Source of the DNA: Desulfuromonadales bacterium
Lineage (GTDB): Bacteria > Desulfobacterota > Desulfuromonadia > Desulfuromonadales > BM103
Assembly (NCBI GenBank): GCA_014860225.1
Contig: JACZKE010000052.1
Coordinates: 186,001 to 250,000, forward strand
DNA length: 64,000 bases
Reading direction: 5' to 3'
Shown here: in pieces, positions 37,510-48,138 of the stretch
Position numbering within the stretch: position 1 is the first letter of the stretch
Layout of the letters: each line of letters opens with the position of its first letter
The notes under the pieces: model-generated
Database searches by the model: none
Seen by the model: only the letters and a program-made list of their open reading frames with translations
What the model was told of the DNA's origin: nothing
Made by a program: the position numbers and the translations under genes

Positions 37510-38259
37510 ATGAAATACGGTTGGCAACAATTCCGCATCGCTCTGGATTTTCTGACCATCCTGCCGATTGATCGTTCGTTGCAGGCGACACCTGAACGGC
37601 TCGGCCGCAGTATGGCGCTCTTCCCTGCAGCCGGAGTGCTGCTGGGGCTTATCCTCGTCGTTCTCAACGGCATGTTGGGTGCGTTCATCCCGAGAGCGGT
37701 TCTCGACTGTCTGCTGCTTCTGATCCTGATCGTTATAACCGGCGCATTGCATCTGGACGGCATCGCGGACTTGCTCGACGGGCTTGCTGGCGGCAAGGAC
37801 CGCAAAGGTGTGCTGCGGACCATGAAAGGCAGCCGGATCGGCGCCATGGGTGTGGTCGGTCTGGTGATGCTGCTGCTCCTCAAGTACCTCTGCCTCTTTA
37901 ACCTGCCGCTGGAGCTCAAGTCCGCCGGCTTGATCTTCATGCCCGCTGCCGGTCGATGGGTGCAGGTGGTGCTGGCGGCTTCCTGTCGATGTCTGTATGG
38001 CCCCGGCGAAACCGGGAAGGTTTTTCTGGACTACGCTGGAGAGCGTGAACTGCTGATCGCCAGTGGCAGCCTGATCGCAGTGGCACTGGTTCTGTTCGGC
38101 CTGCAGGGTGTTTTTCTGATTTTTCTGCTGGGGATAGCGGCTATGCTGCTGATCAAGTATTTCGAAATGCGCCTCGGTGGAGTGACCAGTGATGTGCTCG
38201 GTGCCTCTTCAGAGTTGATTGAAGTTTTGTCGTTGTTACTGGTGCTGGCGGTTATATAA
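37510..38259 (+). CDS. cobS: cobalamin synthase (adenosylcobinamide-GDP ribazoletransferase)
   Basis: 249 residues, a multi-spanning membrane protein. Family motifs are HLDGIADLLDGLAGGKDR (acidic active site), RIGAMGVVGL and GGVTSDVLGASSEL. It joins alpha-ribazole (phosphate) to adenosylcobinamide-GDP in the last steps of B12 synthesis. It is first of four cobalamin genes in the same direction; a 177 bp-family repeat separates it from cobC. Confidence 0.94.
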   Translation: MKYGWQQFRIALDFLTILPIDRSLQATPERLGRSMALFPAAGVLLGLILVVLNGMLGAFIPRAVLDCLLLLILIVITGALHLDGIADLLDGLAGGKDRKGVLRTMKGSRIGAMGVVGLVMLLLLKYLCLFNLPLELKSAGLIFMPAAGRWVQVVLAASCRCLYGPGETGKVFLDYAGERELLIASGSLIAVALVLFGLQGVFLIFLLGIAAMLLIKYFEMRLGGVTSDVLGASSELIEVLSLLLVLAVI

Positions 38260-38261
38260 CT

Positions 38262-38429
38262 TGTTTTCGTCTGGAAACGGCCCTTTTCCGCAATCTCTGC
38301 GTCAATCGGCGGATTTGATTGTGCGGCGTAAAGAACTACGCCTCCGCTCAAATCCTTGATTTCCTTGACCTTGCGAAAAATTGCTCGTTTCCAGATCGAA
38401 AACTGTGCTTGTGTTGTCCGCAGTTTCAA
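38262..38429 (+). repeat. 177 bp-family dispersed repeat, copy D
   Basis: About 168 bases, starting three bases after the cobS stop codon. It has the whole conserved core (TCGGCGGATTTGATTGTGCG, CGCCTCCGCTCAAATCCTTG, ACCTTGCGAAAAATTGCTCG). The right end is slightly shorter (GTTGTCCGCAGTTTC). Confidence 0.9.
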
Positions 38430-38478
38430 CTATAAGTCTGAATCAGCGAACAGCGGGCTCAGAGATTAAGGATCGATA

Positions 38479-39108
38479 ATGCAGCGAACACGAATCTACC
38501 TGATTCGCCATGGCCAGGTTGAAGGGCACGAAGAGAAGCGTTACAACGGCCAGGTTAATGTCCCTCTCACTCAACTCGGGCAAACACAGTCTGATCGTAT
38601 CTGCAATTCACTGGGCAATGTTTCCCTGGAAGCTGTCTACAGCAGTGATCTGGATCGCTGTCGCTATTGCGCCGAACTGATTGCTGGGTCACATGATCTG
38701 AAAGTCAGTACCCTCGAATCTTTACGTGAGCTGCATATCGGCGAATGGGAAGGCCGCACCTGGGCCGAACTGCAAGAGGCGTATCCCGACGGCTGGCAGG
38801 CGCGGCTGCAGGATCTGGCCAATTTTCAGGTACCGGGTGGAGAAAGCCTGCAGGATGCTGCCGACCGCATTCGCCCGGCCATTCAGAACATACTTGCATT
38901 GCACCCCGTCGGCGACGTTGCCCTGGTTGCCCATGGCGGGGTAAACCGGATTATCCTCCTCGACGCCATAGGTGCTCCAATGCAACAGGCATTTTCTATC
39001 GAGCAGGATTTTGGCTGTCTGAATATCATCGACTACTACGCTGACGGTAAGTCAGTCGTCAAGCTGCTTAACGGCACTGCCCATCAGAAGTCAAATTGTA
39101 CCTGCTGA
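38479..39108 (+). CDS. cobC: alpha-ribazole phosphatase (histidine phosphatase family)
   Basis: 209 residues. The phosphohistidine motif LIRHGQ (His11) is at the N-terminus, followed by RYNGQVNVPLT and the ELHIGEWEG motif, with the second His in ALVAHGGVNR. The family includes phosphoglycerate mutases, but the position between cobS and cbiX supports the alpha-ribazole-5'-phosphate phosphatase role. AAGGAT ribosome-binding site. Confidence 0.85.
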   Translation: MQRTRIYLIRHGQVEGHEEKRYNGQVNVPLTQLGQTQSDRICNSLGNVSLEAVYSSDLDRCRYCAELIAGSHDLKVSTLESLRELHIGEWEGRTWAELQEAYPDGWQARLQDLANFQVPGGESLQDAADRIRPAIQNILALHPVGDVALVAHGGVNRIILLDAIGAPMQQAFSIEQDFGCLNIIDYYADGKSVVKLLNGTAHQKSNCTC

Positions 39109-39214
39109 TCAAGGTTCCAAGGGCCAGAGACAACGGCAAAGCCTCGATGACCACAGGTCTGATTGCCTGAACCTGCGATTCATGCAAATATTCAAGTTGA
39201 ATGGAGCAGCAGCG

Positions 39215-39598
39215 ATGAAAGCCGCCGTACTTCTGATAGGCCACGGCTCCCGCATTGCCGGAGCGAATGAGGCCCTGCGAGTCATCGCCGGACTGATCAG
39301 GCAGCATGGCACCTGCGAGATTGTCGAAGTCGCATTTCTCGAAAGACATGAGACGAATATCCAGCAAGGCATCGATGCCTGTGTTGCCCAAGGGGCAGAG
39401 CGCATATTGCTCTACCCATATTTCCTTTTCGCCGGAGCTCATGTGGTCGAAGATCTGCCTGCAGAAATTAAGACCGCGACAGCACGTTATCCCAGATTGA
39501 AAATGGTCCTCAGTGAACCTCTCGGGGCACACCCGAAACTGGTGGAGATTGTCGAGGGGCAGGTCGCTGAGACATTGCAGAGTGCTGGTTGGTCTTGA
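39215..39598 (+). CDS. cbiX: small sirohydrochlorin cobaltochelatase CbiX(S)
   Basis: 127 residues from the ATG at 39215, which has GGAG eight bases upstream; an in-frame start at 39182 is less likely. The chelatase motif LIGHGSR (His10) and the second metal-site region LLYPYFLFAGAHVVEDL are present. At half the length of class II chelatases it is the short CbiX form, which acts as a homodimer. It inserts cobalt into sirohydrochlorin at the start of the anaerobic B12 pathway. Confidence 0.88.
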   Translation: MKAAVLLIGHGSRIAGANEALRVIAGLIRQHGTCEIVEVAFLERHETNIQQGIDACVAQGAERILLYPYFLFAGAHVVEDLPAEIKTATARYPRLKMVLSEPLGAHPKLVEIVEGQVAETLQSAGWS

Positions 39599-39632
39599 GG
39601 TAGAGATCGTAGTCGCTGTCAGCAAAGTAGAG

Positions 39633-39771
39633 AGTCAACGGGCTTGACGAGTGCCTCGGCAAACAGATAGAGTTGGCGAAGCTGCCAGGGGAGTATTTCT
39701 GTCTGCTGACAGACTACAGCGACTGGCCAGTGGCTTTGCGGGAGACAATCAGGGCTTTACTGGTTGATTGA
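39633..39771 (+). pseudogene. short open frame or gene remnant between cbiX and cbiET
   Basis: An open frame of about 45 codons ends at TGA 39769-39771. It has no ATG; a TTG is available internally. Its translation (ending PGEYFCLLTDYSDWPVALRE) reads like a real protein tail in composition, but I do not recognise it. It could be the remnant of a lost gene. Two hairpins follow (39784-39801 and 39818-39834). Confidence 0.3.
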
Positions 39772-39851
39772 GCAGGTCTGGTTTGCACCGGATTCGGTGC
39801 AGTCACCACCTCGAAAGTTTCCAATTTGGAAACGGGGAAGGATGTCATCAA

Positions 39852-41063
39852 ATGAAGACAATTCATGTCATTGGTGCTGGAATAGAGGGCCAGGAGGGCT
39901 TCAGCCGCAAGGCTCTGGAGCTGGTGGATCAGGCGGAAATGCTGATCGGTGGCGCCCGTCAACTTGCGCTCTTTCCAAACTTTTCCGGCAAGACTCTGAC
40001 CATAGGAACCAATCTTGCCCCTGTGGTTGAATGCCTCAGAAAGGCAACGGGTCCAGTGGTGGTGCTGACATCAGGTGACCCGCTATTCTTTAGTATCGGT
40101 CGTTACCTGCTGCGCAACCTGCCAGAGAGTGATCTTGAGTTTGTACCGAACGTCAGCTCGGTCCAGTATGCTTTTGCCAAGATTCGTCAGCCCTGGGACG
40201 ATGCAATCTTCGTTTCAGCCCACGGAAGGGGGATGACGGGCGCTGTCGACCAGGTTGTGGCCCATGACAAGATTGCGATTCTCACTGACGAAGTGAATAC
40301 GCCGCGCGGGATCGCCAGCGAGCTGATTGAACGGGGGCGGGACGGCTACACCGCTTACCTCTGCGAAAATTTGGGGACAGCTGACGAGAAGATTACCCAT
40401 ACCGATCTTAAGGGTTTGCTGAATATTCATGCAGCATCTTTGAATGTTCTGATCCTGATCAAGGAGTATGAATCGGGCGGTGAAGGCGCCGGACCCTTTC
40501 TGGGGATTCCGGATGAAGATTTCGCTTCGGTCAAGAAACTGATCACCAAGGAGGAAGTGCGGGCAGTAAGTCTGGCAAAGCTGCGCTTGCGCCAGGACAT
40601 GACCCTCTGGGACATCGGTGCGGGCTCCGGATCAATCAGTATCGAGGCCGACCACCTCATGCCGAATGGCCGGGTCATTGCGGTGGAACGCAATCCCCAG
40701 TGTCTGGCGTTTCTCAAGGAGAATCTGAGAAAATTCAATTCCCGCAACATAACTCTGATCGAAGAAGAAGCGCCTGCCTGCCTGGATGACCTGCCAGATC
40801 CGGATCGGGTCTTTATCGGTGGCTCCGGAGGTCATCTCTGGAAGATTCTTGCAGCGGCTGACGCTCGTCTGTCAATCGGTGGGCGGGTGGTTCTCAATGC
40901 TGTCACCCTCGACACCCTGACATCCGCAACCGAGTTTTTCGAGAACGCCAGTTACGATCTGGAAGTAACCACAGTTAACATATCCCGTACCCGGCCACTG
41001 ACCGATTACAAAATGTTTGAAGCTTTTAACCCGGTCTTTATCCTGGCAGCGGTCAAAGTATAA
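39852..41063 (+). CDS. cbiET: fused precorrin/cobalt-precorrin methyltransferase CbiE-CbiT (CobL-type)
   Basis: 403 residues from the ATG at 39852, preceded by a GGAAGG site. Residues 1-~200 are CbiE (tetrapyrrole methylase fold: HVIGAGIEG, VVVLTSGDPLFFSIGR). Residues ~210-403 are CbiT (SAM-binding LWDIGAGSGSISIEA and FIGGSGG). Together they methylate C5 and C15 and decarboxylate the C12 acetate. The fusion is common in bacteria. Earlier genes of the pathway (cbiC, D, F, G, H) are not in the window and may follow elsewhere. Confidence 0.93.
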   Translation: MKTIHVIGAGIEGQEGFSRKALELVDQAEMLIGGARQLALFPNFSGKTLTIGTNLAPVVECLRKATGPVVVLTSGDPLFFSIGRYLLRNLPESDLEFVPNVSSVQYAFAKIRQPWDDAIFVSAHGRGMTGAVDQVVAHDKIAILTDEVNTPRGIASELIERGRDGYTAYLCENLGTADEKITHTDLKGLLNIHAASLNVLILIKEYESGGEGAGPFLGIPDEDFASVKKLITKEEVRAVSLAKLRLRQDMTLWDIGAGSGSISIEADHLMPNGRVIAVERNPQCLAFLKENLRKFNSRNITLIEEEAPACLDDLPDPDRVFIGGSGGHLWKILAAADARLSIGGRVVLNAVTLDTLTSATEFFENASYDLEVTTVNISRTRPLTDYKMFEAFNPVFILAAVKV

Positions 41064-41067
41064 GCTG

Positions 41068-41135
41068 ATGGACCATGATAAATGGCCCTTAGCTAACCAA
41101 ATTTTCGCTTGGATTTCCCAAGTCCGACAGGCTCC
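41068..41135 (-). repeat. remnant of the 169 bp repeat family
   Basis: Read on the minus strand: GAGCCTGTCGGACTTGGGAA, then AAGCGAAAATTTGG and a GGGCCATTTATCATGGTCC tail. It resembles the left arm of the 35771 element. It directly abuts copy E of the 177 bp family. Confidence 0.5.
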
Positions 41136-41137
41136 TC

Positions 41138-41314
41138 GTGTCCATCCGGAAGCTCGGGATGACACAGCCACAGTTTTCGATGTGGAAACGAGCAATTTTT
41201 CGCAAGGTCAAGGAAATCAAGGGTTTGAGCGGAGGCGTAGTCCTTTACGCCGCACAATCAAATCCGCTGATTGACGCAGAGATTGCGGAAAAGGGCCGTT
41301 TCCGGACGAAAACT
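41138..41314 (-). repeat. 177 bp-family dispersed repeat, copy E (full length)
   Basis: 177 bases in reverse orientation, from GTGTCCATCCGGAAGC to GTTTCCGGACGAAAACT. Nearly identical to copy C over the core. It fills the space between the ends of cbiET and nikR, which converge here. Confidence 0.9.
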
Positions 41315-41316
41315 AG

Positions 41317-41730
41317 CTACACCCCCACCGACGTTAATACCAGCTTCCCGTGCTTGACACCTTTAGTGCCGATCAATTCATCGGCCAGGCGCTTGATCTG
41401 CGCGGCAGTGCCGCGCACTACCACAACCTCAAGGCAATGGTGGGCATCAAGATGAACGTGCAATGCTGAAACAATGGCATCGTGGTGGGAGTGCTGATGT
41501 TCGGTGAGTTTGTCGGAGAGGTCACGGGTGTGGTGGTCGTAGACAAGCGTGACCGTGCCGACAGTCGCTGTGGTGTCGGCCCGCTCGATCTGATCCTCCA
41601 CCAGGGCATTGCGAATCATGTCGCGGATTGCCTCGGATCGGTTGACGTAGCCTTTAGTGGTAATCAATTGGTCGAAACTCTCCAGGAGGCGTGGGTCAAT
41701 AGAGATGCCAAAGCGAGCAAGAGCAGTCAT
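41317..41730 (-). CDS. nikR: nickel-responsive transcriptional regulator NikR
   Basis: 137 residues from the ATG at 41730 (GAGGAAT site); a longer frame from 41829 lacks support. An N-terminal ribbon-helix-helix domain ([18 protein letters not shown]) is followed by an ACT-like domain with the nickel ligands His80, His91, His93 (LHVHLD) and Cys99. NikR represses nickel uptake genes when nickel binds. No nickel transporter or hydrogenase gene is in the window, so its targets are elsewhere. It is divergent from nrdD. Confidence 0.94.
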
Positions 41731-41850
41731 GGTATTCCTCACGGTTAAATATTGTGGATATTTACATGGTGTCTTTATAAGGGTCAAGAATCTTACTTGC
41801 TTAGCATACATTATGACAAGCTCATCCACAGGCTGTCCACGGGGTTGTGC

Positions 41851-41866
41851 ACAACATGTAGTGCAA
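41851..41866 (+). promoter_or_regulatory. weaker NrdR-box-like motif
   Basis: ACAACATGTAGTGCAA matches the NrdR box pattern only in part. It lies 30 bases (start to start) upstream of the better box, close to the three-turn spacing usual for NrdR box pairs. A DnaA-box-like TCATCCACA lies just upstream at about 41822. Confidence 0.4.
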
Positions 41867-41880
41867 AAAGCAAGATTTTT

Positions 41881-41896
41881 TGTCTATATATTGTGT
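41881..41896 (+). promoter_or_regulatory. NrdR box upstream of nrdD
   Basis: TGTCTATATATTGTGT fits the NrdR consensus acaCwAtATaTwGtgt well. It lies 68 bases before the nrdD start. NrdR is the nucleotide-sensing repressor of ribonucleotide reductase genes; its own gene is not in the window. Confidence 0.65.
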
Positions 41897-41964
41897 TTTT
41901 CCCTTTGCTGTTTAAGAGCCGTATGGTAGCTTTCTATAAGTTTATTTGATCGGGGGAGGGTGAC

Positions 41965-43953
41965 GTGCTGGAATTTATTCGTAAACGGGATGGGCGGCTT
42001 GTAGCATTTGAAGAAGAAAACATCGTCTCTGCTATCCGGAAGACGGTCAAGGCCGTGGGTGGCACCGACATGGCGCAGGCTGCCGGAATTGGCCGCCAGG
42101 TCGTCGGCATTCTCGAGGTCATCTACAAAGATGGACGTATCCCCACAGTTGAGAATGTCCAGGATCTGGTTGAAAAGATCCTCATCGAAAACGGCCATGC
42201 CAAGACTGCCAAGGCCTACATCCTGTACCGTCAACAGCATGCGTCACTACGTGAAACCAAGGCGTTTATCAAGGAATCGATCGAGTCGATGGATTCCTAT
42301 CTCACCCAGGAGGATTGGCGGGTCAACGAGAACGCCAACATGGGATACTCCCTGCAAGGGCTTAATAATCATATTGCGTCCAATGTCACCAGCAACTACT
42401 GGCTGAACAAAATTTATCCGCACTATGTGGCCGATGCCCATCGTGATGGCGACTTCCACATCCACGATCTCGGCATGCTCTCGGTTTATTGCTGTGGCTG
42501 GGATCTTAAGGACCTGCTCCTCAAGGGCTTCAGCGGCGCCTATGGCAAGGTTCAGAGTGCGCCGCCCAAACATTTCCGTACAGCCCTCGGCCAGGTCGTC
42601 AACTTTTTCTATACCTTACAGGGCGAAGCTGCTGGTGCTCAGGCCTTCGCCAATTTTGACACCCTGCTTGCCCCCTTCATCCGCTACGATGGCCTCTCTT
42701 ATCACGAAATCCGTCAGTCGATGCAGGAATTCATCTTCAATATGAATGTGCCGACGCGGGTCGGCTTTCAGACGCCATTTACCAATATCACTCTTGATCT
42801 CTTGCCACCGCGCGACATAGGTAAGGATGCGGTCATAATAGGTGGCAAACTGGTGGATGCTACTTATAGTGATTTCCAGGATGAGATGGATCTCTTTAAC
42901 CGGGCTTTCTGTGAAGTGATGATGGACGGCGACGCTTCCGGGCGGATTTTCTCTTTTCCGATCCCGACGGTCAACATCACCAAGGAACTCGATTGGGACA
43001 GCCCGCGTTTTCAACCGGTTTGGGAGATGACTGCCAAGTACGGCATTCCCTATTTCAGCAACTTCATCAATTCCGATATGGACCCGGAGGATGCACGGTC
43101 CATGTGTTGCCGGCTGCGGCTCGACAACCGCGAACTGCGTCGACGTGGCGGTGGTCTGTTTGGCTCCAATCCCTTGACCGGCTCGATCGGAGTGGTCACA
43201 CTCAACCTGCCCAGGGCGGCTTATCTGGCTGAAGATGCAGACGACTTTTTCGGCAGAATCTCCGAACTGATGCGTATGGCCTATGAATCCTTCGAAATCA
43301 AGCGCAAACAACTGGAGCGTCTGACCGAGGAAGGTCTTTATCCCTACAGTCGTTTTTATCTGCAGGGGATCCGTGAGCGCAGCGGTCGTTACTGGGACAA
43401 CCATTTTTCCACCATCGGCTTGCTCGGCATGAACGAGGCAATGCTCAACCTGAAGGGCAAAGGAATCGATACCACGGAAGGCAAGAGCCTTGCCGTGCGA
43501 ACCCTGCAGTTCATGCGCAGCCAACTGGAGGCGTTCCAGGAAGAATCCGGCCACCTCTATAATCTTGAAGCTACCCCGGCAGAAGGAACCAGCTTCCGTC
43601 TGGCGCGAGCGGACCGGGCCCGCTACGTTGACATTATAACCGCTGGAGATTCCGAACCCTACTACACCAACTCGACCCAGCTTCCGGTTGGAACTACTGA
43701 TGATATTTTCGAGGCGCTGGCCCATCAGGATTCCCTGCAAACCCTTTATACCGGTGGCACCGTCTTTCACGGTTTTCTCGGTGAGCGGCTTGACGACTGG
43801 CAGAGTGCCCGCCTGATAGTGCGGCGGATTGCCGAAAATTTCCACCTGCCATATTTCACCATCAGTCCGACATTTACCATCTGTCCTGAGCACGGCTACA
43901 TCTCGGGTGAACACTTTGCCTGTCCGCATACTCATGAAGGACAGGCCGCTTGA
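41965..43953 (+). CDS. nrdD: anaerobic ribonucleoside-triphosphate reductase, catalytic part lacking the glycyl-radical domain
   Basis: 662 residues. An ATP-cone (3-95) is followed by the catalytic barrel with conserved Cys176/177 (SVYCCGWD) and Cys381/382 (RSMCCRLRL), where the thiyl-radical Cys is expected. The C-terminus has the first zinc-site elements (ICPEHGYISGEHF, Cys640 and His643), then FACPHTHEGQAA and a stop. A normal NrdD continues as CPxCG, then the SRxxGY radical loop. Here that part is missing and is found in the separate 46-codon gene 65 bases downstream. The large subunit alone should not be active. GTG start with a GGGGGAGGG site. Confidence 0.93.
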   Translation: MLEFIRKRDGRLVAFEEENIVSAIRKTVKAVGGTDMAQAAGIGRQVVGILEVIYKDGRIPTVENVQDLVEKILIENGHAKTAKAYILYRQQHASLRETKAFIKESIESMDSYLTQEDWRVNENANMGYSLQGLNNHIASNVTSNYWLNKIYPHYVADAHRDGDFHIHDLGMLSVYCCGWDLKDLLLKGFSGAYGKVQSAPPKHFRTALGQVVNFFYTLQGEAAGAQAFANFDTLLAPFIRYDGLSYHEIRQSMQEFIFNMNVPTRVGFQTPFTNITLDLLPPRDIGKDAVIIGGKLVDATYSDFQDEMDLFNRAFCEVMMDGDASGRIFSFPIPTVNITKELDWDSPRFQPVWEMTAKYGIPYFSNFINSDMDPEDARSMCCRLRLDNRELRRRGGGLFGSNPLTGSIGVVTLNLPRAAYLAEDADDFFGRISELMRMAYESFEIKRKQLERLTEEGLYPYSRFYLQGIRERSGRYWDNHFSTIGLLGMNEAMLNLKGKGIDTTEGKSLAVRTLQFMRSQLEAFQEESGHLYNLEATPAEGTSFRLARADRARYVDIITAGDSEPYYTNSTQLPVGTTDDIFEALAHQDSLQTLYTGGTVFHGFLGERLDDWQSARLIVRRIAENFHLPYFTISPTFTICPEHGYISGEHFACPHTHEGQAA

Positions 43954-44018
43954 TAAATCGTGAGGCCTCAGGTGTAAGAAGGTTGCTCCTCGCGTCTCAC
44001 GAAAAGGAGATTCAGATC

Positions 44019-44159
44019 ATGTCAACCAAATGCTCCGCTAAAACCGAAGTCTACTCACGCGTTTGTGGTTTCTTTCGCCCGGTTCAACAATGGAACAAAG
44101 GGAAAAAGGAAGAGTTCAGGGATCGTCAGGAGTATGTTGTTGAAGAGGACAAAGGCTAG
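44019..44159 (+). CDS. stand-alone glycyl-radical domain of anaerobic ribonucleotide reductase
   Basis: 46 residues. The sequence CSAKTEVYSRVCGFFRPVQQ and the following WNKGKKEEFRDR match the C-terminal end of class III NrdD, with the radical glycine as Gly17 in RVCGFF and one Cys (Cys5) in the position of the last zinc ligand. It has its own AAGGAGA Shine-Dalgarno eight bases before the ATG. It lies in a different frame from nrdD, and a simple frameshift would add ~24 unrelated residues between the parts, so a sequencing error is an unlikely cause. It probably docks onto the large subunit to rebuild the zinc site and radical loop. nrdG follows. Confidence 0.85.
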   Translation: MSTKCSAKTEVYSRVCGFFRPVQQWNKGKKEEFRDRQEYVVEEDKG

Positions 44160-44161
44160 GT

Positions 44162-44192
44162 AGTTTTCGTCCGGAGTTCCCGGACGAAAACT
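44162..44192. repeat. 13 bp perfect hairpin made of repeat-family ends
   Basis: AGTTTTCGTCCGG and its exact inverse CCGGACGAAAACT with a five-base loop. The sequence equals the left terminus of the 177 bp repeat family, facing itself, as if a copy had lost its whole interior. It begins three bases after the stop codon of the 46-codon gene and may attenuate transcription into nrdG. Confidence 0.75.
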
Positions 44193-44282
44193 GGTGGTCC
44201 CACCCTGGCGGGGCTCTCGCCTATCATGGGCAGGCACAACGCCTGACTCTATAGATTCCATGATGTATTGAAGACATGATGT

Positions 44283-44981
44283 ATGGGTATTAAAGGTTTT
44301 CAAGGGACAAGTCTGCTTGATTATCCAGGGCGGATAGCATCTCTGGTGTTCTGGGGCGGGTGTAATTTGACCTGCCCTTTTTGTCATAACCCTGTCCTGG
44401 TTCTCGAGCCGGACACCTGCCCCGATCTGGATCCCGCCGAGTTGCTGGCTGACCTTGCCGAGCGCAGATCCTTTATTGACGGCGTCGTTGTTTCGGGTGG
44501 CGAACCGACCATGAACAGTGGTTTGCTCCCCTTCCTCAAGCAGGTCAAAGCGTTGGGGCTGGCGGTTAAGCTCGACACGAATGGTCTGGCTCCGCAAATC
44601 ATCGCAGAGCTGCTTGCCGGCCAGTTGATCGACTATCTGGCCATTGATCTGAAGACCATACCAGCGCGCTACCCCGAGTTGCATACTGGGGCCGTCTTTG
44701 TCGACAAGCTGGTTGAGACAGTGCGTCTCTGTGCCGGTGCAGCTGTTGAACTCGAGTATCGCACGACTTGTGTTCCCGGATGGGTCGATGAAAATGTGAT
44801 CGCCGAGTTGGGAGAGTTGATCCAGGGTTCCCCGCTCTGGGCACTACAGCAGTACCACTCCGAGCATGCTCTTTGCGAACGCGCAAGGGCGCAGGCTCCT
44901 TATTCTGACGAGCAGGTCCGGGCTTTTGCCGAGATTGCCGGGAACCATGTAAAGCGGGTTATTGTACGAGGGTGTCGCTGA
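44283..44981 (+). CDS. nrdG: anaerobic ribonucleotide reductase activating enzyme (radical SAM)
   Basis: 232 residues. The radical-SAM cluster motif is CNLTCPFC (Cys27, 31, 34), with the GGEPT motif near residue 80. The N-terminus (GFQGTSLLDYPGRIASLVFWGGCN) is typical of the NrdG group found in many anaerobes, larger than the ~154-residue E. coli NrdG. It uses SAM to place the radical on the glycine of NrdD, here Gly17 of the separate 46-residue protein. Ribosome-binding site is weak. Confidence 0.9.
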   Translation: MGIKGFQGTSLLDYPGRIASLVFWGGCNLTCPFCHNPVLVLEPDTCPDLDPAELLADLAERRSFIDGVVVSGGEPTMNSGLLPFLKQVKALGLAVKLDTNGLAPQIIAELLAGQLIDYLAIDLKTIPARYPELHTGAVFVDKLVETVRLCAGAAVELEYRTTCVPGWVDENVIAELGELIQGSPLWALQQYHSEHALCERARAQAPYSDEQVRAFAEIAGNHVKRVIVRGCR

Positions 44982-45041
44982 TAGAGTGCAAAAAAACACA
45001 CTGGAAAATGACTGTGGCCTGCGTTTGCGGGACACAATATA

Positions 45042-45067
45042 AAAACCCGGGCTTTCAGCCGGGTTTT
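45042..45067. terminator. terminator after nrdG
   Basis: Nine-base stem (AAAACCCGG with CCGGGTTTT), eight-base loop. A- and T-runs flank both sides, so it can serve nrdG (plus) and the small minus-strand gene that ends at 45095. Confidence 0.9.
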
Positions 45068-45094
45068 ATTGGTTTGAAATGGTGTGTTGCTGCC

Positions 45095-45223
45095 TCAGAA
45101 ACGCAACCAGAGCAGGAAAGAGACACTGATGATGGCCATGGCACTGCCGGCCATGATATAGAGGAGGGCATCCATGATATTGATCGGCATTTTGGTTTTA
45201 CGGTTGTCCAGTGTATTCGACAT
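45095..45223 (-). CDS. small single-span membrane protein, unknown function
   Basis: 42 residues from the ATG at 45223 (GGAG six bases upstream); a start at 45244 would add seven residues. A polar N-terminus (NTLDNRKTK) is followed by one hydrophobic helix (ALLYIMAGSAMAIISVSFLLW). Not recognised. The clear ribosome-binding site and shared terminator support it as a real gene. Confidence 0.55.
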   Translation of the reverse strand: MSNTLDNRKTKMPINIMDALLYIMAGSAMAIISVSFLLWLRF

Positions 45224-45443
45224 AACCAACTCCGTTTTAGACATCTCTTGAAACTTCATGACGATTGCCAGAGAGGAAATGCAGAGCAATGCACGTGCCA
45301 AAAAGTCAAGATTTCGCGAGAAATCCTCAAGTTGTTGAAAATACAACAGCATGGCAAGAATGCTCAGGTTGAGTCATGTGATGATGCCTGGCCAAAAATA
45401 GATATATCGCGAAATCGCGGCATTTTATAGCGGTAGATTTCCT

Positions 45444-45708
45444 AGTGTCCTGTCATGGGTCAAATGTTGTATTCAGAGCCACGCAAAGAACCCAAGACAA
45501 GGCGCAGGCCGCAGAGAATGTCGTGCCCTTGTCAAGGGCTGCAACGCCGTATTGGGTTCTTTGCGTGGCTCCCGCAGGGCAAGGCGATAAGCAACCATCT
45601 GCGGCGTTGCACTCACTTGAACTAGATAGCTAGTCCTGCGTTCGCGCGTCTTGCATATGGCCGCTTCTCGCCTTGCTGAAAGCGACATTTGACCCATGAC
45701 AGGACACT
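45444..45708. mobile_element. 265 bp MITE-like element with 24 bp perfect terminal inverted repeats
   Basis: The ends AGTGTCCTGTCATGGGTCAA.. and ..TTGACCCATGACAGGACACT are perfectly complementary over 24 bases (45444-45467 and 45685-45708). A second inner inverted repeat (GAGCCACGCAAAGAACCCAA at 45475 and its near-exact inverse near 45553-45574) makes a strong hairpin. There is no credible coding sequence inside, and no obvious target-site duplication. It lies six bases from the stop codon of the dihaem cytochrome gene. Probably a non-autonomous element mobilised by a transposase elsewhere. Confidence 0.85.
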
Positions 45709-45714
45709 TGCCCC

Positions 45715-45984
45715 TTAAGGGCTTGCAAGTTTATGGCAGAAGAGGCAACGGTATTTTGCCGGATGTCCTTCCGGGAAGGGGATGTTGTCTTGGTTGTGGC
45801 ACTCTTCGCAGAACTTCTCAGCAGCTTTTTTCCCTTCGGACTTGACGATGTCATGGTACTGGCGATGATCGTCATCGAAAGGCACGCGACTGGTTGACTC
45901 GGGTGGTGCTTGCCAGAGGAAAGCCAGGATGATGATGGCAACTCCGACCAGAAGAAGATCACGTTTTTTAAGGGAAAAAGCCAT
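45715..45984 (-). CDS. small membrane-anchored dihaem cytochrome c
   Basis: 89 residues. One N-terminal membrane segment (residues ~10-25), probably an uncleaved anchor, is followed by a short periplasmic domain with two haem-c motifs, CEECH (Cys59-His63) and CLFCH (Cys80-His84), and several spare His residues for distal ligation. It resembles the minimal NapC/NrfH- or cytochrome c3-like modules of Desulfuromonadales, but I cannot place it in a named family. No redox partner gene is adjacent. Confidence 0.8.
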   Translation of the reverse strand: MAFSLKKRDLLLVGVAIIILAFLWQAPPESTSRVPFDDDHRQYHDIVKSEGKKAAEKFCEECHNQDNIPFPEGHPAKYRCLFCHKLASP

Positions 45985-46182
45985 GAGGACCTCAATGCGT
46001 GGTTATGTTAATCGGTGTCAGTATTGTTTGTTGGCAAGGCTGGTTAATCTACCAAACCAGTGAAAAGATAGCATCACTTGGCAAACACTGCAACAGGCGT
46101 CAAGCGGTTTGTCCGGCACGTTCGAGTATGCAGTTCGCAATCATGTAAAGTGTTGCAACGGTATTGCTGTAGAGCCTTGCCA

Positions 46183-46518
46183 TCAGTCGCTGCGGATAAA
46201 AAGCAGGTAGATAGCCAGAAAGACGATGAATGAGCCGCCGCCTACCAAAACCATGAGCGCGTCAGTCGGCATGCCGCCCTCCAGTGACGTTCCCTGGGAG
46301 AGTGTGTAGCTGAGAAGATAAATGAAACCGGTAATCGTCATGACCGTGACCAGCAGCAGGCGCCAGTGCATCAGATAGGCAATCACTGCAGTAACACCGA
46401 CGCCGGCCAGGAAGTAAGGGTGCTCCATAACCTGCTTGAGGTCCATGGCCTGAATATAGGCCATGACTCTGGCGGTTTCAAACTGCTTGATGAATTCGAT
46501 GGCTGAGGAAAAATCCAT
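46183..46518 (-). CDS. conserved small membrane protein, unknown function
   Basis: 111 residues from the ATG at 46518 (GGAGAAGG site); a longer frame to 46614 is not supported. Three hydrophobic segments at about 35-52, 54-74 and 88-108 are preceded by a charged amphipathic N-terminus with FETARVMAYI. Not recognised. Codon use fits the neighbours. Confidence 0.6.
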   Translation of the reverse strand: MDFSSAIEFIKQFETARVMAYIQAMDLKQVMEHPYFLAGVGVTAVIAYLMHWRLLLVTVMTITGFIYLLSYTLSQGTSLEGGMPTDALMVLVGGGSFIVFLAIYLLFIRSD

Positions 46519-46687
46519 GAGCCCTTCTCCGGTTTGCTTACTTGCTGATGGGTAAACTTCAGTTTGGTATATTATCACCTTTTCTGAATGCGACAAAGGC
46601 CAAAAAACCTCCATAATTCTTGACTTTTGCTGACTTGCTATCTAGAGTAACCCCCTGCTGAAAACTACGAAAAAGAGGGCTGAGACG

Positions 46688-47488
46688 GTGCCAGAAAGAG
46701 CCATTGGTGTCTTTGATTCAGGAGTAGGCGGATTGACCGTCCTGCGGGAACTGCGTCACCAGATTCCTGACGAACCACTTGTTTACCTGGGTGATACAGC
46801 ACGCGTACCTTACGGTACAAAGAGCTCGCCGACCGTGCTGCGTTACGCACACGAGGCCGCACGTTTTCTGCTTGCCCAGCGGGTCAAGCTGCTGGTTATC
46901 GCATGCAATACCGCTTCAGCTGTTGCTCTTGACGATCTCGCGAAGCACTACCAGGTGCCGGTGGTCGGTGTAATTGAACCAGGCGCCCGACGAGCACTGG
47001 AAATCACTTGCAACGGCCGAATAGGAGTGATCGGTACTGAAGGGACGATACGCAGTGGCGCTTACGAGCGTGCTCTGCGGGCGGGCAGGCCGGATATCGT
47101 AGTGCATGTTGCAGCATGTCCGCTCTTTGTGCCGCTTGCTGAAGAAGGCTGGGCCTGCCATGAGGTTGCTCGTCTGGCTGCCAGGGAATACCTTGCGCCT
47201 CTTCTCGAGGCGGGCATCGATACCCTGGTGCTCGGCTGTACCCATTATCCGTTGCTTAAACTAATGCTGCAGGAGGTTGTCGGCCCGGCTGTTCAACTTG
47301 TCGACTCCGCACAGGAAACGGCCAAGGTCGTTGCCGCACGGCTCAATGAGCATCAGTTGCTGCGTCAGACAGCAGCTGTTCTGTATCCACGTTATTTTGT
47401 AACCGACATCCCCGATCGCTTCGAGCGGGTCGGCGGCGCCTTTCTTGGTGAAGAGCTGCAAGGGGTTACCACGGTCAGTCTGGATTGA
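46688..47488 (+). CDS. murI: glutamate racemase
   Basis: 266 residues, full length. Signature motifs: GVFDSGVGGLTVLREL, ACNTASA with catalytic Cys73 and GCTHYPLL with catalytic Cys184. It makes D-glutamate for peptidoglycan. GTG start at 46688. It is followed directly by the GerMN-domain gene and metH, forming a three-gene run. Confidence 0.95.
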   Translation: MPERAIGVFDSGVGGLTVLRELRHQIPDEPLVYLGDTARVPYGTKSSPTVLRYAHEAARFLLAQRVKLLVIACNTASAVALDDLAKHYQVPVVGVIEPGARRALEITCNGRIGVIGTEGTIRSGAYERALRAGRPDIVVHVAACPLFVPLAEEGWACHEVARLAAREYLAPLLEAGIDTLVLGCTHYPLLKLMLQEVVGPAVQLVDSAQETAKVVAARLNEHQLLRQTAAVLYPRYFVTDIPDRFERVGGAFLGEELQGVTTVSLD

Positions 47489-47490
47489 AT

Positions 47491-48138
47491 ATGCCCAAGT
47501 CTTATCACGAACCAAATAAATTAAAACAGCAGTCATGGCGAAAACCCCTGATTCTCTGGGGCAGCCTTGTTGTACTGCTGTTCTGCGTCGGTCTGGTTGT
47601 CGGCTATTTGAAAACCAGAGAAATTCCCGGGATATCGACGGTTGTCGAGGAGATGGCGTCGCAGCAGAACCGGGAGATGATTCTCTACTTTGCATCAACT
47701 GATGGCCAGGCTCTGGTCGCAGAAACGCGCATGGTCAAGGAATGCCAACGCGACGAAGATTGTCTCCGTGATATTGTCGAGGCTCTGATCGCCGGACCGC
47801 AAAGCGGTCTTGTACCGATTCTGCCTGCAGAGGTCGCGCTGCATGAGATCACTGTTGCCGACAGTCTGGTCAGCGTAGATTTCAGCCGGGAGCTGATCAC
47901 CGCGCATCCGGGCGGCACTCAGAGTGAGCTGCTTACCATCTACGCTCTGGCCGATACTTTGACGGTTAATTTCCCGCATCTCCGCCAGGTGCGGATTCTG
48001 GTGAACGGAGCATCGGTAACCACCCTTAAAGGGCATGTCGACCTGCGCCAGCCGATCAACCCGGATTTCAGTCTGGTAGAAGAAGGGTTGGCTCCAACCG
48101 GCAAAATGATCAGCCTGCCTGAAGGAAGGGACGAGTGA
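47491..48138 (+). CDS. GerMN-domain membrane-anchored protein
   Basis: 215 residues from the ATG at 47491. One N-terminal membrane helix (~20-41) is followed by an extracytoplasmic GerMN domain (~60-185: ILYFASTDGQALVAETR, DIVEALIAGP, VSVDFSRELI, and RILVNG). GerMN domains occur in sporulation proteins and in non-sporulating bacteria near cell-wall genes. The adjacency to murI suggests a role in envelope or peptidoglycan maintenance, which is an inference. It overlaps metH by four bases. Confidence 0.8.
   Translation: MPKSYHEPNKLKQQSWRKPLILWGSLVVLLFCVGLVVGYLKTREIPGISTVVEEMASQQNREMILYFASTDGQALVAETRMVKECQRDEDCLRDIVEALIAGPQSGLVPILPAEVALHEITVADSLVSVDFSRELITAHPGGTQSELLTIYALADTLTVNFPHLRQVRILVNGASVTTLKGHVDLRQPINPDFSLVEEGLAPTGKMISLPEGRDE

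Follow-up and report, generated by a model that had tools for sequence, protein, structure and literature searches.

The locus described here raises a simple question: what becomes of a class III ribonucleotide reductase when its glycyl-radical domain is encoded by a gene of its own? It lies in a 64,000-nucleotide (nt) stretch of a Desulfuromonadales bacterium genome (assembly GCA_014860225.1, contig JACZKE010000052.1, positions 186,001 to 250,000, forward strand), called the window below, where the nrdD reading frame stops short of the radical domain and a downstream open reading frame (ORF) of 46 codons supplies it. Our answer, which we hold with considerable confidence, is that the two ORFs encode a two-chain class III reductase whose small chain carries the radical glycine and one zinc-type cysteine, that oxygen damage would be limited to this small chain, and that phages most likely supply it as well. 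Class III reductases are already known, as are trans-acting radical domains of pyruvate formate-lyase. Neither a separately encoded bacterial NrdD radical domain nor a stand-alone phage one was found in the portion of the open PMC literature covered, a scope that leaves subscription journals outside. The features of the locus are as follows.

41965 to 43953, + strand: nrdD large (catalytic) chain, with ATP-cone and NRDD barrel and without a glycyl-radical domain (ORF, Pfam, PRK08270)
43882 to 43923, + strand: zinc-ligand-type codons of the large chain, C640 (43882-43884), H643 (43891-43893) and C653 (43921-43923)
43954 to 44018, + strand: spacer between large and small ORF, 65 nt (19-290 nt in relatives)
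44004 to 44010, + strand: AAGGAGA, ribosome-binding site of the small ORF (sequence motif)
44019 to 44159, + strand: small ORF, 46 residues, glycyl-radical subunit of NrdD (NRDD 526-562 of 562, E 9.4e-11; median ratio of nonsynonymous to synonymous substitution rates, dN/dS, 0.05)
44031 to 44033, + strand: the fourth zinc-ligand-type residue, small-chain C5 (the same in all 25 small chains compared)
44067 to 44069, + strand: G17, radical glycine of the small chain (invariant in 25 small chains and in 36 chains)
44162 to 44192, + strand: perfect inverted repeat of 13 bp (5-nt loop), downstream of the small ORF and upstream of nrdG (by eye)
44283 to 44981, + strand: nrdG2, radical-SAM (S-adenosylmethionine) activase (TIGR02495, 168.9 bits, cut-off 131.15)

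The large ORF begins with GTG and encodes 662 residues ending in ...FTICPEHGYISGEHFACPHTHEGQAA before a TGA; translated, the 3' end of nrdD reads ...CPEHGYISGEHFACPHTHEGQAA followed by the stop, which falls within the fourth zinc-ligand motif. Residues 4-93 make up the ATP-cone. The chain covers positions 1-527 of the 562 in the Pfam family NRDD (599.3 bits), so the catalytic domain is present, and against PRK08270 it scored 1023.1 bits with a cut-off of 548. The small ORF runs from an ATG at 44019 to a TAG at 44157-44159 in a frame different from that of the large one, and its protein opens with MSTKCSAKTEVYSRVCGFFRPVQQWNKGKKEEFRDR... Because the large chain spans positions 1-527 of NRDD and the small chain 526-562, the two are complementary halves of one profile. 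As in other class III enzymes, a glycyl-radical domain with its conserved glycine is present, here on the separate small chain, and an activase gene, nrdG2, lies directly downstream; the single polypeptide of that class is replaced by two ORFs in different frames. Coordinates and NRDD halves agree with an earlier note on this DNA, made from the sequence alone, which had described a truncated nrdD followed 65 nt on by a separate 46-codon ORF with AAGGAGA and a radical G17. It had also placed the break inside the fourth zinc-ligand motif, where C640, H643 and C653 indeed fall on the large chain and C5 on the small one, and had seen the nrdG that follows, matched here by TIGR02495 at 44283-44981.

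Conservation of the arrangement was assessed in 58 genomes, the window's own and relatives, 52 of which have an NRDD match. Large and small parts were found as separate ORFs in 51 of the 52, six of these being single-contig assemblies, and in the remaining genome (G030) the locus ends at a contig end. The earlier note had proposed just such a search for small ORFs beside a truncated nrdD, and had named a second intact nrdD with decay of the locus in relatives as the outcome that would speak against a split; no such outcome was found in the window's genome or in the sample of relatives. The large gene of one relative (G018) is interrupted by a run of N. A sample of the class (117 genomes, 64 with NRDD, parts called by profile coordinates and separate frames) gave both parts in 55 of 56 NRDD genomes of the same order and a different split in all eight of another order, two of which (L227, L229) were read as sequence.

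Fifty pairs from the first sample were readable; L002, which repeats the window, and L022, with a run of N, were excluded, L048, a split of the second kind described below, fell outside the search pattern, and L059 (in G030) is cut. A Shine-Dalgarno motif lies within 16 nt of the small-ORF start in all 50, compared with 7.7% of random 16-mers from the same loci, and a strict AGGAG or GGAGG precedes it in 48, compared with 2.4%. The start codon is ATG in 48 pairs and GTG in 2. Frame offsets of 0, 1 and 2 between the large and small ORF occur in 21, 11 and 18 pairs, respectively, across spacers of 19-290 nt (median 65). Over the first 39 codons of the small ORF, dN/dS has a median of 0.05 and a maximum of 0.21, as estimated from those pairs whose dS could be used (331 of 1225), the others being saturated or near-identical. 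In 48 of the 50 pairs, Ala-Ala closes the large chain. Palindromes were seen in 13 of the 50 spacers (no control) and by eye resemble repetitive extragenic palindromes (L023, L027, L029, L037, L043, L045 and others); judging from them, the spacer looks like a tolerated insertion site.

Together, the order-wide conservation, start signals, frame and spacer variation and purifying selection exclude error, decay and recoding as general explanations. They strongly support the two-chain enzyme put forward in the earlier note, and its judgement that a sequencing error was unlikely is borne out by the 51 of 52 genomes with both parts, the separate start signals and the purifying selection. The large and small ORF are almost certainly translated separately, and the two chains very likely form an active enzyme. 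An error in sequencing or assembly, or decay of the gene, for which only the broken frame itself and a further break of the large gene in G031 and G120 would speak, has practically no chance of being right and is rejected by the presence of both parts in 51 of 52 genomes (six single-contig) and by the strong purifying selection on the small ORF seen in dN/dS. Joining of the parts into one chain through recoding, splicing or an intein is very improbable. In 21 of the 50 pairs the ORFs do share a frame with only stop codons between them, but all three frame offsets occur, spacers are as short as 19 nt, and each small ORF has a start signal of its own, on which grounds recoding and splicing were rejected. 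Moreover, small copies occur in records without any large-chain match, and no RNA family, including a cobalamin riboswitch such as that described ahead of nrdDG in Desulfuromonas (PMC545781), was found at the gathering threshold in window positions 38000-48000.

Residues of both chains are conserved. Among 25 small chains, of which 20 are linked to a large chain and 5 are not, C5, E10, V11, R14, V15, G17, F18, F19, R20, P21, V22, Q24, N26, G28, K29, E32 and R36 do not vary. C641, H644 and C654 of the large chain and C673 of the small chain (L117 numbering) are invariant in 16 pairs read through as one chain plus one fused viral chain. When 36 chains were compared, 11 of them read-through pairs and 25 fused viral ones, both cysteines of the large chain, the small-chain cysteine and the radical glycine remained invariant and the histidine proved variable. 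The large-chain histidine that the earlier note had singled out at the zinc motif is thus present (H643), but it is not peculiar to the split, since a C-x2-H in the first half of the motif is also found in the fused viral chain L186 and in fused cellular chains. The invariant ligand-type cysteines, and the histidine in the 17 closer chains, are consistent with a zinc site common to both chains, as the earlier note had proposed. An AlphaFold2 model of a read-through pair, built from a 36-row alignment, had a mean pLDDT (predicted local distance difference test) of 85.6, with 78-89 in the small-chain/radical-domain blocks. It superimposed on the Prevotella copri NrdD 8p2s with a Z of 35.9 and a root-mean-square deviation of 2.6 over 562 residues, and it also aligns with other NrdD and glycyl-radical enzymes. 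In this model, the small chain is predicted to sit in the place of the covalent C-terminal domain of a one-chain NrdD.

The split extends beyond the relatives of the window's genome. In a scan of named genomes, restricted to the best 80 of more than 542 loci, large and small ORF are apart in 73 and the small ORF is alone in the stretch examined in 7; the genera named there include Desulfuromonas, Desulfuromusa, Geopsychrobacter, Geothermobacter and Malonomonas, and the cultured relatives Desulfuromusa kysingii (L100) and Malonomonas rubra (L124) have the split. The same split occurs outside the order in Lentisphaerota (including Victivallis vadensis), FCPU426 and Goldiibacteriota, and a Thermoguttaceae metagenome-assembled genome (MAG) also carries a split pair (L280). 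At a second set of loci (L227-L229, L232, L234, L281-L283) the split is of another kind: CPxC is kept in the large chain, and the small chain begins just before the radical loop. The small chains L230, L231 and L235 differ in their cysteines. A tree was made from 146 chains, of which 9 partial ones were left out and 137 kept (129 distinct rows), with the radical domain excluded and three states read from the large chain only: fused, split with the zinc motif broken, and split with the zinc motif whole. These states need at least 11 changes, compared with a shuffled mean of 54.7, on a tree built by a quick method in which long branches meet at two places. Five changes were counted for the zinc-motif-broken state (3 forced by well-supported branches) and seven for the zinc-motif-whole state (7 forced); the tree is unrooted, so it gives no direction of change.

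Some individual loci depart from the simple pair. Two radical ORFs lie near one large chain at L127, L129 and L227; at L127 and L129, one copy reads RVCGYF and the other RVVGYF. On two Desulfuromusa MAG contigs (L103 5655-5819, L121 5983-6144) a small ORF is preceded by 5.6-6 kb without a large chain. Genome G070 has a split pair, an unlinked copy beside a transposition gene and, on a second contig of 242 kb (C2), an intact fused NrdD of 739 residues (L225 2411-4627). G454 and G481 were considered as splits and rejected, their in-frame stops lying elsewhere in fused genes; each of these fused NrdD genes (L276, L278) has one stop codon within the catalytic part.

Small chains also occur away from any large chain, and in one sample their presence follows the split. 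Of 69 genomes sampled from the phylum to which one Lentisphaerota genome belongs, 49 match NRDD, 9 of them with the zinc-motif-broken split (seen as sequence in eight and from coordinates in G442). Unlinked copies were found in 8 of these 9 genomes and in 1 of the remaining 40 that match NRDD (Fisher p 1.8e-7, which overstates the evidence because the genomes are related and because some of the eight, G403, G404, G416 and G439, had already appeared in the named-genome scan). The lone non-split genome, G463, has two unlinked copies, on contigs of 3.9 and 5.6 kb, with the same protein as one in G425. Some other unlinked copies (G439, G478, one of G416) lie on contigs below 8 kb.

Many unlinked copies have neighbours of the kind found in mobile elements. 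Five relatives in the first sample (G032, G033, G035, G036, G049) have a second, unlinked small ORF. Neighbours of L055 match Mu Gam, GemA, AAA, amidase and DUF1804, and other copies adjoin a D5-type primase (L056), an AAA/TniB-type protein (L054), a transposition protein (L224), a terminase (L139), a head maturation protease (L271), a phage primase (L259), phage-type helicases (L260, L261, L263) or tail-fibre-like proteins (L268, L256). No clear phage hallmark was found at L057, L126, L226, L257, L258, L265, L266, L269 or L270, where one or two proteins each could be considered.

In IMG/VR, a search with the small-chain alignment gave 80 loci: 77 with the domain as its own ORF and no large chain in the flanks, and 3 fused. 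The 77 ORFs are 33-263 residues long from stop to stop (median 62). When whole records were searched, 50 of 50 and a further 24 of 28 matched only the end of NRDD, so 74 of 78 viral records have the domain alone; the other four comprise 3 fused genes and one record (G400) with a large chain and a small ORF. In G400 (L236, L237; 187654 bases), 69 kb lie between the C-truncated large chain of NrdD and the small ORF. An nrdG-type match was found in 2 of the 50 domain-alone records searched of the 74. Of 80 viral ORF pieces, 78 retain the radical glycine motif and the other two are downstream halves of interrupted ORFs; 69 of the 78 domains with the motif also have the zinc-type cysteine. The residue before the glycine is Cys in 35, Val in 33, Thr in 8 and Ser in 2 of these 78; it is Cys in 114 of 115 linked cellular domains. 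ORF lengths in two viral contigs with an in-frame TAA (L141, L142; see below) gave no clear sign of an altered code, with no proper control. A tblastn search of INPHARED with the small protein returned three records: an Oceanotoga phage; MT835493, rejected as a stand-alone domain since it encodes a fused 810-residue chain; and the archaeal virus ANMV-1, with a stand-alone protein of 144 residues that the available text of PMC4372165 names nrdD in a figure legend. Seven queries against PHROGs matched the ends of NrdD families, one of them also weakly matching three families of 158-192 residues, and no family of the small protein's own was among the matches. Viral loci found with whole NrdD (n = 80, L296-L375) comprise 51 fused genes, 23 split pairs and 6 large chains only; at L308, the small ORF comes first, followed by a large one that is broken into two pieces.

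A small-chain-only phage would depend on its host for the large chain and for NrdG, which agrees with the stand-alone copies and with their association with the split, and the phage copies probably act with host NrdD. They might instead be inhibitors or decoys, unproductive radical domains that occupy host NrdD and stop host deoxyribonucleoside triphosphate (dNTP) synthesis, but we regard this as improbable. The viral copies are more varied than the host ones, both in the residue before the glycine and in the 9 of 78 without the zinc-type cysteine, and an nrdG-type gene accompanies only 2 of the 50 searched. However, the radical glycine motif is kept in nearly all of the viral pieces, and many phages carry a fused or split whole NrdD, pointing to a need for dNTPs.

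A third form was met when the small-chain profile was run on 197 genomes of the phylum: four genomes, all of family f55, gave five matches that are short and unlinked. These four have an intact NrdD of another subtype (two, L382 and L383, were read). The third-form proteins are the following.

L376, 4096-4404: third-form protein
L377, 4185-4493: third-form protein
L378, 4607-4915: third-form protein
L379, 2652-2957: third-form protein
L380, 4342-4710: third-form protein

At 102-123 residues, they consist of a conserved N-terminal region of about 68 residues, for which no Pfam or NCBIfam match was found, and a radical domain without the zinc cysteine, ITRITGYFTKVASWNPGKRGELKDR, which closely resembles the NrdD end of the same family, ITRITGYFTKVSGWNKGKLAELKER. 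Across the order, 8 such proteins occur in 7 of 11 genomes, and all 11 have an NrdD-type end, in G486 only within a 152-residue frame. Of 17 loci in IMG/VR, 13 are stand-alone, some divergent N-terminally (viral contigs L390-L401 and L404); the other 4 belong to long NrdD ORFs. In architecture these sequences resemble GrcA/YfiD, for a reductase.

We propose the following mechanism. ATP-cone, catalytic barrel and three of the zinc-ligand-type residues would come from the large chain; the radical glycine and the fourth ligand-type cysteine would come from the small chain of 46 residues, which would dock where the covalent C-terminal domain lies in one-chain enzymes. Judging from the family, NrdG would act on the small chain and install the radical there, for the large chain to use in catalysis, with zinc presumably common to both chains. 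A separate radical chain is plausible because the radical domain leaves the core, flipping outwards, to be activated (PMC12662201, as far as its available text goes). Oxygen damage cleaves glycyl-radical enzymes at the glycyl radical (PMC8683613, PMC3019208), and since oxygen attacks there, damage would be confined to an exchangeable chain, a tiny protein swapped in place of the whole enzyme; exchange or repair would then proceed as with GrcA/YfiD. Small-chain-only phages and prophages, from their distribution, would most likely supply fresh radical subunits to the host large chain, and dNTP synthesis would be kept going for phage replication. A replaceable radical subunit, suggested in the earlier note by analogy with GrcA/YfiD, is supported indirectly by the stand-alone copies in phages, prophages and elsewhere and by the GrcA-like two-part proteins beside intact NrdD. 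We lean towards a small chain that is exchangeable in the cell. On balance, and with hesitation, we also favour the broader view that NrdD radical domains act in trans as exchangeable parts in three forms: obligate subunits of split enzymes, phage-borne subunits for a host split enzyme, and GrcA-like spares, with an N-terminal region of their own, in viruses and in bacteria that have an intact NrdD.

The pair might alternatively be an obligate two-chain enzyme without exchange or repair, in which a tolerated fission became fixed and the small chain is permanently bound. The parts are nearly always adjacent in the order and most genomes have one linked copy, as this would require, yet we think it unlikely. 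Breaks are found at two places and arose more than once on the tree (11 changes, three states), stand-alone copies are common in viral records, and the chains of G400 are 69 kb apart; a neutral accident predicts neither the two break sites and repeated breaks nor the stand-alone viral copies and distant chains.

Several observations weigh against an exchangeable two-chain enzyme with phage-supplied subunits. The structural model is of one read-through chain with the spacer as linker and not a two-chain co-fold, NrdD structures were already known to AlphaFold2, and a shallower alignment (17 rows) gave a poor radical domain. Its alignment with 8p2s, from model residue 95 to 708 and 8p2s residue 85 to 735, is given by end points only. 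The pLDDT is below 50 in the linker (659-669) and in the active-site loop (386-402), so the model lends no support to an approach of the glycine to the active-site cysteine. Among the viral records, which are possibly fragments, G397, one of the 74 with the domain alone, is below the family cut-off; 9 of 78 domains are without the zinc-type cysteine; and the small ORFs of L141 (5965-6168) and L142 (5450-5653) have an in-frame TAA where others have Gln. Among the cellular genomes, the large gene is spread over two frames in G031 and is in two pieces in G120. The window's own genome has no NRDD match besides the two halves and thus no unlinked small copy. It does encode two class-II-like reductases (746 and 757 residues, class by eye), and its class III enzyme may therefore be dispensable. 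Their genes are as follows.

L222, 391-2631: class-II-like reductase gene of the window's genome
L223, 1303-3576: class-II-like reductase gene of the window's genome

Beside nrdD, the ORF at window positions 41317-41829, - strand, looks by eye like a gene for a NikR-type regulator.

The closest known enzymes are the NrdD of phage T4 (1h78), Thermotoga maritima (4u3e/4coi), P. copri (8p23/8p2s) and Streptococcus thermophilus (9d3x), which share with the split enzyme the catalytic core, ATP-cone, zinc-motif residues, radical glycine motif and neighbouring nrdG; they are single chains, whereas the radical domain in the window has its own gene. GrcA/YfiD of Escherichia coli and Y06I of phage T4 are spare parts of pyruvate formate-lyase, the only two validated and others being speculated in the available text of PMC8683613. 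Each is a small trans-acting protein with a duplicate of the glycyl-radical C-terminus, one carried by a bacterium and the other by a phage, and YfiD has a separate N-terminal half, as do the third-form proteins. GrcA/YfiD serve a different enzyme, however. The small chain and the 102-123-residue proteins match only NRDD in Pfam, and neither has the pyruvate formate-lyase-type glycine radical domain; the window's small chain, with four residues before Cys5, also has no separate N-terminal region. Furthermore, the window's large chain is without a radical domain of its own, which makes the small chain a subunit rather than a spare. Split class II NrdJa/NrdJb (PMC9669993) likewise pair a catalytic chain with a second chain bearing a C-terminal zinc finger, but they are cobalamin-dependent, and their second chain is IscU-like plus a zinc finger domain and not glycyl-radical. 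Phage nrdD genes in pieces were described in PMC3653736, mostly interrupted by introns, inteins or endonucleases, with one case unexplained; here, in contrast, there are two genes with their own start signals, conserved across bacterial orders, plus stand-alone radical domains.

If the broader view is correct, the three forms together would be the first such spare-part system outside pyruvate formate-lyase among glycyl-radical enzymes, and phages would hijack the host reductase by bringing only the radical cartridge. With a natural class III reductase whose radical protein is a separate, minimal chain of 46 residues, the spare-part question becomes testable by mixing two purified chains, and radical transfer, NrdG activation and oxygen damage could be studied on a synthesisable or isotope-labelled peptide. 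At about 140 bp, the phage copies would amount to a very inexpensive auxiliary gene that acts on the dNTP synthesis of the host; their shortness makes them easy to overlook, and annotated ones, such as that of ANMV-1, may carry the name of the whole reductase. For the family, the split would give class III a division of labour between catalytic and radical subunits, as in class I.

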